From: Planctomycetia bacterium
GTDB taxonomy: Bacteria > Planctomycetota > Planctomycetia > Gemmatales > Gemmataceae
Assembly (NCBI GenBank): GCA_005808665.1
Contig: SYLG01000183.1
Location: 1-50,822, forward strand
Reading direction: 5' to 3'
DNA length: 50,822 nt
Shown: piece by piece, positions 39,730 through 43,419 of the stretch
Layout: the number at the start of each line of letters is the position of its first letter
Numbering within the stretch: position 1 is the stretch's first letter
The notes under the pieces: model-generated
What the model was told of the DNA's origin: nothing
The model's input: only the letters and a program-made list of their open reading frames with translations
Databases searched by the model: none
Made by a program: the position numbers and the translations under genes

Positions 39730-40065
39730 GATTGCCAAAATCCATTGAGGTCCCATTTCCATGTTGCAAACTGGGCCACTCTCGCCTTTCTTTTCTTGTG
39801 GATTAAAATGTCATTCGCAAAATACACAGGTTGAACCAAATGATTCCGTTTTTCTGGTTGTACGAATGATGGGTCTTGGGAAAAACAGGCAATGCATGGT
39901 ATTATAGGGGTTGTAGCGGTTGCATAGGTCGGGGAGAATTCCAGCCCGTTATATAAGGGAATGGTTCCTTGCGAAAAACCGTCTATCCATTACTCTTTTA
40001 GTGATGGATGGAAAGATTTCAATTCGCCCATCCATTTGGCAACCACCACATACGGGTTTTGCACC
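39730..40065. other. Intergenic region between divergent pseudo-receiver and HTH genes
   Basis: About 335 bases. No convincing gene; the upstream extension of the HTH frame to 39961 lacks family features. It should contain both divergent promoters, but I found no clear -35/-10 pair or operator dyad. Confidence 0.35.
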
Positions 40066-41380: not shown

Positions 41381-42655
41381 TTACCTGATTGCCGGGAAAA
41401 TGCGGGCGGGATTGTTTCTCAAAAGGTCCCTGGCAAGTTCCACCGCCTGATTTCGGGTCATGGCTCCGGGAGCTACATAATCCTGGGCTAAAACCCGGGC
41501 CAATACCTGTTTGAACATCAAATATTTAGGCGGCCCAAACTCCAATTTGTACATATCGCTGTAATACCCCAGGATTTTTTCCCGGGGAATTCCATGGAGC
41601 CTGGCCCTCAGGTCCTGTTCGATCAAGCCAGGGATATTGGCATACCACCAATGACCACTCGCAATCACATTGGGAAAGATCCAGGAATAGGCCACCAGCT
41701 CACTATTTTGGGCACTCGATAAAACAGACACAGGAAATTTTACCGAAGGAAACGCATTGAATATTGGCGCCAGTTGAATGAGTGAAAGGCGTTGATCAAA
41801 CAAATCGCAACCCTGATGGACACCCTTTGGGAACACATTCCGATTGACACCAAACATGAGATCAAACGGTAATCCAAACTCTGCGCAACAACGGGCAATT
41901 TCCCAGAATATTCCCTGGGAACGCCCCACGGATGGACCTCCTTTCAACAATTCCATGGTGAGGTCAGCTCCCTCCACAGGTTGAGCATGAAATGTGGGGG
42001 GAAGCGATATCGCACATGCCCTGGCCCCACGATTAAGGAAAAATTGAAATAGCTCCCTTAGTGCCTTTCCAAGGCTGGTTGCATCCACAACCTCCACCCC
42101 CGTTCGGCGCCAAAGTCGCTCCTTCACCCCCGCCTTTTGCCAATGAAAAACCATTTCATCGGTCCTTAGGCAGGGAACGAAACGGTCCGTGTCAAAACCG
42201 GTTAGGGGATCATCAAAATCATTGGTCAAAAACACCTGGTCAATCGGTCCCAGCTCAAGTGATTGCCGTTCCCACCCGGGGGCCTGGTAGATTTTCAGGG
42301 AGGCGTCAAAAAGCATATCCGCATCCCCTGGTTCAATGGCATTTTTGGTATACCCCAAAGTAGTTTTCAGAATCCATAATAGCCACGAATATTGAACCGT
42401 ATTGTCCATCCTGCAAACATAGCCAAGGACCTCACGACACCGATCCCGGGCGGGATAATCCAGGCCAAGGCATTCTTTGGGCATCCCCAGGGAATGAGCC
42501 AATTCGGTGTAGTAATGGTAGGAAAGCAAATCGTCGATGGATTTGGCAGCAGCAGCTTCCGGAGGAATATGAGAGTGGGGATCAATAATTCGAATTTGAT
42601 TGATCTCTTCAAGGATATCCATGGCTAAAGAACCGGCTACAGGTGAGGCAATCAT
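41381..42655 (-). CDS. Uronate isomerase-like amidohydrolase-superfamily protein
   Basis: 424 residues, slightly shorter than E. coli UxaC (470). The N-terminal IIDPHSHIPPEAAA supplies the paired metal His motif of the amidohydrolase fold, and the layout (helical region with YHYYTELAHSLG, later FDDPLTGFD and HWWYANIP) matches COG1904 uronate isomerases, which interconvert glucuronate/galacturonate and ketouronates. A hydrolase-like role is also possible. ATG at 42653-42655 has GGGGAA six bases upstream; an ATG at 42620-42622 is the alternative. A palindromic dyad lies about 40 bp upstream. Divergent from the sigma-54 RNA region. Confidence 0.75.
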   Translation of the reverse strand: MIASPVAGSLAMDILEEINQIRIIDPHSHIPPEAAAAKSIDDLLSYHYYTELAHSLGMPKECLGLDYPARDRCREVLGYVCRMDNTVQYSWLLWILKTTLGYTKNAIEPGDADMLFDASLKIYQAPGWERQSLELGPIDQVFLTNDFDDPLTGFDTDRFVPCLRTDEMVFHWQKAGVKERLWRRTGVEVVDATSLGKALRELFQFFLNRGARACAISLPPTFHAQPVEGADLTMELLKGGPSVGRSQGIFWEIARCCAEFGLPFDLMFGVNRNVFPKGVHQGCDLFDQRLSLIQLAPIFNAFPSVKFPVSVLSSAQNSELVAYSWIFPNVIASGHWWYANIPGLIEQDLRARLHGIPREKILGYYSDMYKLEFGPPKYLMFKQVLARVLAQDYVAPGAMTRNQAVELARDLLRNNPARIFPAIR

Positions 42656-42697: not shown

Positions 42698-42719
42698 TGT
42701 AAAATGTGCAACTTTTACA
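42698..42719. promoter_or_regulatory. Inverted repeat TGTAAAA-N8-TTTTACA
   Basis: A perfect 7+7 dyad around TGTGCAAC, centred near 42708. It lies about 43 bp upstream of the uronate isomerase-like start and about 155 bp upstream of the -24 element at 42863. Both positions fit a regulator site: an operator for the minus-strand gene or an upstream activator site for the sigma-54 promoter. No known consensus is matched. Confidence 0.45.
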
Positions 42720-42862
42720 ATGTTGGACCAATCCGTTCCATGTAATTTTTTCACCACGCTCCTTTTTTGAAAAGGGCGACCTACCCCCGGCTTCCGTCTA
42801 TTAATACATAACCCCTTCCTTATTCTGTACTTAAGTTTGGAGATATTATTTTCTTGATGCTT

Positions 42863-42878
42863 TGGCACGGCATATGCT
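42863..42878 (+). promoter_or_regulatory. Sigma-54 (-24/-12) promoter
   Basis: The bases TTGGCACG (from 42862) then GCAT then ATGCT match the sigma-54 consensus YTGGCACG-N4-TTGCW at all but one position. The spacing of the GG (42864-42865) and GC (42876-42877) pairs is exact. Transcription would begin near 42889, at the start of the structured RNA. A second near-consensus match occurs by chance within a gene at 2351-2366, so this element alone is not proof. Confidence 0.7.
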
Positions 42879-42888
42879 TTCATTAACT

Positions 42889-43069
42889 TTTGTTGACAAC
42901 CGAAATTGGTAAGATTCCTCCCCAGGATCAAACCCGTCTCCCCGACGATTTGAATTGTCAACGCCTTGCAAAGATCGTCCCCCCGATCTGGCAAGGCAAA
43001 GTTGATGGTCGATTCCCATTGACCACCTTATCTTGCAACCCTCCTATCCCCCAGGAGGGTTGCTTTTTT
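42889..43069 (+). ncRNA. Candidate small RNA with four C-rich-loop hairpins
   Basis: About 181 nt from the predicted sigma-54 start to the terminator. Four hairpins follow each other. (1) TCCT/AGGA at 42916-42919 and 42924-42927, loop CCCC. (2) CAAA/TTTG plus CGTC/GACG at 42929-42952, loop TCCCC. (3) 42957-43006, with GTCAAC, GCCTTGC and AGATCG arms, loop TCCCCC. (4) the terminator at 43035-43063, loop ATCCCCC. No open frame with family features fills it. Loops of this kind base-pair with Shine-Dalgarno sequences in C-rich small RNAs of Staphylococcus (RsaE) and alphaproteobacteria (cuckoo RNAs). Function is inference; the structure is seen directly. Confidence 0.65.
43035..43069 (+). terminator. 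Strong intrinsic terminator of the small RNA
   Basis: An eleven-base perfect stem, GCAACCCTCCT (43035-43045) with AGGAGGGTTGC (43053-43063), loop ATCCCCC, followed by TTTTTT (43064-43069). It ends the C-loop RNA and precedes the lipoprotein gene by about 165 bp. Confidence 0.9.
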
Positions 43070-43236: not shown

Positions 43237-43419
43237 ATGAAACCAAACCGAATCCTGACCATGGCATCCATCTGTTTCGCCCTTGGGGTGGTCGGGTGTT
43301 CTGAGCCCAAGGTTGAAGTCCCCGCAGATAAGAAAGCCGCTCTGGACAGCGTTATTGGCGGCGATTTCAAAAATCAGACCAAAGGGGCCGAAGCCAAGAT
43401 GAAACAACCTGGCAAATAA
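43237..43419 (+). CDS. Small predicted lipoprotein, unknown function
   Basis: 60 residues: a signal peptide with lipobox VVGC (lipidation at about Cys21), then a short mature part of about 40 residues rich in Lys, Glu and Asp with no recognisable domain (ends AKMKQPGK). RBS AAGGTGA lies seven bases before the ATG. It is flanked by its own terminator at 43450 and the small-RNA terminator upstream, so it is monocistronic. I do not recognise the family. The lipobox and isolation with dedicated terminator support a real gene. Confidence 0.7.
   Translation: MKPNRILTMASICFALGVVGCSEPKVEVPADKKAALDSVIGGDFKNQTKGAEAKMKQPGK

Follow-up and report, generated by a model that had tools for sequence, protein, structure and literature searches.

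Sequence comparisons point to a real, conserved and apparently undescribed family of small RNAs (sRNAs) in the Gemmataceae, one member of which lies in the window, that is, the whole 50,822-nt stretch of planctomycete DNA analyzed here. The first-pass annotation had proposed a stand-alone, sigma-54-driven, multi-hairpin sRNA at this locus, and this reading is supported by the conservation of the promoter, the fold and the C-rich loops across the family. Moreover, dozens of related genomes have such loci, often more than one each, which suggests that an entire network of regulation is involved. We consider these RNAs to be probably free-standing, sigma-54-activated and Hfq-independent, with C-run loops that pair with G-runs in selected mRNAs in the manner of sX13. 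To our knowledge, very little is known about regulatory RNA in planctomycetes. The features of the locus are as follows:

41381..42655, minus strand: divergent neighbor, an amidohydrolase with a weak UxaC/Amidohydro_2 match; the synteny partner; of the 95 Gemmataceae genomes, 82 have an ortholog.
42698..42719, no strand assigned: TGTAAAA-N8-TTTTACA, an inverted repeat that may be an enhancer (activator site) or else the divergent gene's operator.
42862..42878, plus strand: predicted sigma-54 (-24/-12) promoter TTGGCACGGCATATGCT, from the motif match; GGCA[CT]N6TGC in homologues.
42889..43069, plus strand: predicted small RNA, from the fold (z -8.28) and homologues; start placed about 12 nt after the -12 GC.
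42892..42962, plus strand: 5' domain closed by GTTGACA/TGTCAAC in the MFE structure, enclosing three hairpins, a small one at 42899-42910 and two with C-loops.
42916..42927, plus strand: hairpin 1, loop CCCC; MFE fold, kept in two congeners.
42928..42953, plus strand: hairpin 2, loop TCCCC; MFE fold and congener comparison.
42963..42997, plus strand: hairpin 3, loop TCCCCC; MFE fold and congener comparison.
42999..43034 (approximate), plus strand: hairpin 4, loop TCCC; MFE fold, TCCCCC in two congeners.
43035..43069, plus strand: intrinsic terminator with an 11-bp stem, loop ATCCCCC and TTTTTT.

The 181-nt stretch at 42889-43069 has a predicted folding energy of -70.4 kcal/mol, against -39.0 +/- 3.8 kcal/mol for dinucleotide shuffles, none of which (0/200) folds as stably. 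All four loops reported in the first-pass annotation (CCCC, TCCCC, TCCCCC and ATCCCCC) are present, and none of 500 shuffles of this RNA reached four CCCC-containing loops; that annotation had overlooked a fifth C-rich loop, TCCC, in the hairpin at about 42999-43034, as well as the long-range stem that pairs 42892-42898 with 42956-42962 to close the 5' domain. The 11-bp terminator hairpin with its six T, likewise reported earlier, was recovered at 43035-43063; one of its inner pairs is T-A in the window and C-G, with both sides changed, in the congeners.

The -24/-12 element noted upstream was also confirmed: TTGGCACG-GCAT-ATGCT (42862-42878) departs from YTGGCACGN4TTGCW by one mismatch and retains the exact spacing. 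It is among the five strict sigma-54 pattern matches in the 4.48-Mb genome, which encodes rpoN (PF04552, E 2.8e-61), the gene whose presence had been proposed as a check; an rpoN ortholog is found in 88 of the 95 Gemmataceae genomes. GGCA[CT]-N6-TGC is kept in 53/53 homologues while the inner promoter spacer varies. Because the homologues were selected with a looser promoter pattern together with at least four C-runs, GGCA and TGC are invariant in part by construction, and the freely varying spacer is the informative part. In the third species of the genus the promoter letters differ (GGCACACAAGTTGC) with the GG-to-GC spacing intact. Sigma-54 control of the sRNA family is strongly supported at the level of sequence comparison.

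Conservation extends well beyond the genus. Two genomes of same-genus relatives carry the sRNA at 88% and 79% identity, and covariation inside the genus of the window's genome is accordingly limited to three sequences. A second form, reached via a terminator-only match, occurs in other genera; every named record of it is a planctomycete MAG, and several carry the label Gemmataceae. In this second form (nine loci), CCGGAACAG in the first domain can pair with the downstream CCAGGTTCCGCG to give a possible pseudoknot, the sequences being too invariant for covariation. Upstream of the amidohydrolase orthologues, 53 of 78 regions (52 genomes) contain a sigma-54 element followed by a 180-300-nt string of C-loop hairpins; of the other regions, some lie at contig ends. 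The genus form is taken to be orthologous to the other forms on the grounds of synteny, the promoter, the upstream repeat, the terminator and the loops, and not of overall sequence similarity. The amidohydrolase-like protein itself (41381-42655) is an uncharacterized conserved enzyme, linked to the sRNA by synteny.

The first-pass annotation had held that stems lacking compensatory changes, or loops without C-runs in relatives, would count against the proposal, and both comparisons came out in its favor. Compensatory changes occur in 26 of the 49 consensus-fold pairs across 21 Gemmata-like sequences (shuffled mean 9.8; 0/500 reach 26), and the count falls to 2-6 when the pair partners are slid by 1-3 columns. 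Likewise, CCCC is present in 203 of 252 small hairpin loops from 46 homologues (81%), against 14% in dinucleotide shuffles. That last figure is what could be said for the view that C-rich DNA has formed a structure by chance, or that the locus is nothing more than an array of terminators, since C-rich intergenic sequence does yield some C-loops; the fold z-score, the covariation and the conservation across many genera already refute such an account, and we give it next to no credence. Read on the opposite strand, the loops contain GGA, and so a functional minus strand with GGGGA loops binding CsrA, like CsrB/RsmZ, can be envisaged. However, in the homologues it is the plus strand that carries the promoter and the T-run terminator, and the wobbles number 60 G-U against 15 A-C (40 against 15 without one near-invariant pair), an excess that favors the plus strand; on these grounds a CsrB-like minus-strand RNA was rejected as most improbable.

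Another possible reading is that the RNA forms the 5' leader of the downstream gene at 43237 and acts on it as an attenuator or riboswitch. In keeping with such a leader, the RNA ends in a terminator and shows a very weak similarity to the PyrR binding site (RF00515; 29.6 bits against a cut-off of 54). Yet conservation does not extend to the downstream gene: 28 of the 49 homologues have no downstream protein in common with any other, and in one congener the next gene is oriented the other way. As the downstream genes differ among homologues, a leader or attenuator was rejected, and we regard it as very unlikely. The gene just downstream of the sRNA in the window (43237-43419) encodes a 60-aa predicted lipoprotein without a Pfam match.

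The family appears to be concentrated in the Gemmataceae. A pattern of TTGGCAY-N6-TGC followed by two CCCCC runs matches 55 of 95 genomes of the family, whereas the reversed pattern, used as a control, matches three; the window's own genome is missed because its first loops are shorter. Outside the family, the pattern is found in 7/302 genomes of the same class, and in a phylum-wide sample of 392 genomes, where Gemmataceae is represented by the window's genome alone, it matches five genomes outside Gemmataceae against about ten for the control, that is, with no excess. When synteny and DNA matches are added, at least one candidate is present in 73 of 95 Gemmataceae genomes, not all of which were checked by folding.

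Many of these genomes have two to four sRNA loci, and the unlinked paralogues have loops, promoter and terminator in common with the amidohydrolase-linked sRNA. A paralogue that recurs, about 140 nt long and located elsewhere in the genome, starts with UUCGUCG and has CCCCC loops and a C-loop terminator. Among nine loci of this paralogue in Gemmata-like genomes, some lie near a conserved gene whose product starts MEIAPA(E/D)LTRVRELYTQG. In the window's own genome, a relaxed pattern finds four other places, none with the family fold and loops. The control regions of the two kinds of locus are distinct. Of the 53 amidohydrolase-linked loci, 47 have TTGTAA/TTACAA half-sites at 90-200 bp upstream from the promoter (2.2 expected from shuffles), often arranged as an inverted repeat, in the stretch that separates the sRNA from the divergent gene. 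This is the position where a sigma-54 enhancer would sit, but the site may be one that the divergent gene uses. In most copies of the recurring paralogue, a different conserved palindrome, CTTACCGGTAAG, is found about 150 bp upstream; its difference from TTGTAA/TTACAA suggests a different activator.

Taking these features together, we consider the following course of events the most probable. Under an enhancer-binding activator, sigma-54 RNA polymerase would transcribe the sRNA, which its own terminator would end; stable stems would then display four- or five-C runs in hairpin loops, and these would pair, without Hfq or ProQ, with GGGG/GGGGG near the start codons of a restricted number of mRNAs. 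The main effect would be reduced translation, as with sX13 in Xanthomonas. Dose or redundancy could come from the multiple loops on each molecule and, in many relatives, from multiple sRNA genes in the same genome. An Hfq gene was found in 0 of the 95 Gemmataceae genomes, and a ProQ gene in 0 of 41 relatives.

The target set envisaged here is narrower than the general blocking of GGGGA- or AGGAG-type ribosome-binding sites proposed in the first-pass annotation, which finds no support here. In two genomes sampled with rough gene calls, the motif enriched before start codons, and hence the local Shine-Dalgarno sequence, is GGAG (51/219 and 55/243 genes), while GGGG/GGGGG show little or no enrichment. 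A C-run cannot form an uninterrupted duplex with AGGAG, so the blocking of such sites is unsupported; and given the lack of a bulk G-run enrichment, the targets, if the loops do pair with mRNAs, would be a minority. A strong candidate target is rpoN: its leader (minus strand), TGGGGGATAGG-TTTC-ATG, contains an 11-nt exact complement of the sRNA terminator loop CCTATCCCCCA, the longest among 265 leaders tested (control maximum 9), at a site that is possibly part-hidden in its own CCCCC-TT-GGGGG hairpin. This G-run is absent from the rpoN leaders of other species, the sister species included. The complementarity may reflect genus-specific feedback or chance; with the 11-nt complement confined to the window's genome, rpoN was ruled out as a conserved target. 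The mRNA of the divergent amidohydrolase was also set aside, there being no conserved G-run in its leader. Within the window, the ORF at 39961 has a leader (39925-39975) containing GTCGGGGAGA, a 10-nt complement of sRNA hairpin 2.

The main rival to loop-to-G-run pairing is that the RNA is a decoy for a protein recognizing the C-runs of the loops, like CrcZ or CsrB with a different motif, though we know of no bacterial protein with such specificity in this group. That each molecule carries three to seven nearly identical loops, kept while the stems change, and that the two sampled genomes lack a bulk G-run signal at start codons both speak for this, and CrcZ provides a precedent for a sigma-54-driven decoy (PMC8395346). 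Against it stand the failure to find Hfq in the 95 genomes or ProQ in the 41 relatives, and the existence of C-loop sRNAs with proven G-run targets, as documented for sX13 (PMC3771888). On balance, we consider a protein sponge unlikely. The use of the same loop currency by unlinked paralogues would also fit the titration of another RNA, such as a G-rich sRNA or an RNA fragment, with mRNAs not being direct targets, an arrangement that we hold to be improbable. Pairing of the loops with G-runs in mRNAs thus stands as the likeliest mechanism.

More broadly, and quite tentatively, we propose a lineage-wide sigma-54 RNA network in the Gemmataceae, for which our searches recovered no Hfq and no ProQ: unlinked sRNAs with different activator sites and the same C-run loops would allow different signals to feed into one shared loop ‘code’, possibly with negative feedback on rpoN in the genus of the window's genome. 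A family with sigma-54 promoters and so clear an anatomy makes chaperone-free base-pairing without Hfq directly testable, and it also opens a way into what sigma-54 controls in planctomycetes. Some of the Gemmata-like genomes are complete single contigs and hence perhaps come from cultured strains. The family also suggests an independent origin of C-run loops in distantly related bacteria, which would make them a common solution for structured chaperone-free sRNAs.

Among known RNAs, no Rfam family matches the window at gathering scores, including RsaE, Qrr and other sRNA families; the sRNA was therefore assigned to none, and the many miRNA matches look like chance products of long GC-rich inverted repeats. 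A limited search of the open-access literature likewise found no planctomycete sRNA of the C-loop sigma-54 kind, in agreement with the earlier remark that no planctomycete example had been described. The Vibrio Qrr sRNAs depend on both sigma-54 and Hfq. Like the present family, they are related multicopy sRNAs, under a two-component regulator (PMC4211561); they differ from it in having a conserved 32-nt core rather than C-loop hairpins. In Pseudomonas, NrsZ and CrcZ are RpoN-dependent sRNAs under NtrC or CbrB (PMC8395346). Neither has an Rfam match here, and CrcZ has A-rich sites for Hfq, which was not found in Gemmataceae. The RsaE-type RNAs and RNAIII of Staphylococcus resemble the family in their UCCC(C) loop motifs, which pair with ribosome-binding sites; in contrast, the Gemmataceae sRNAs have longer C-runs in nearly every loop, including that of the terminator, and the local Shine-Dalgarno sequence is GGAG and not a G-run. 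The alphaproteobacterial cuckoo RNAs (CcsR type) are also multicopy and have C-rich loops, with the loop motif CCUCCUCCC. This motif is absent from 42889-43069, and the promoters differ, as does the Rfam result, with no match above the cut-off.

The closest parallel is sX13 (RF02232, Xanthomonadaceae), likewise a compact hairpin sRNA with CCCC/CCCCC apical loops. According to the part of its description available to us, sX13 acts independently of Hfq on G-rich motifs near the start codons of its targets, and has three hairpins in about 115 nt, beside polA, with no sigma-54 promoter mentioned there (PMC3771888). The Gemmataceae sRNAs, by comparison, span 180-270 nt with typically four to seven C-loop hairpins, lie beside an amidohydrolase gene and are multicopy in relatives. 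The sX13 model is absent from the Rfam scans of the window; it is the only bacterial sRNA among the weak matches of the amidohydrolase-linked homologues, in one homologue at 26.2 bits (E 0.42, cut-off 50). With both the Rfam model and the genomic position failing to agree, the likeliest relationship is one of analogy: the Gemmataceae sRNA would work like sX13 without being a member of its family.
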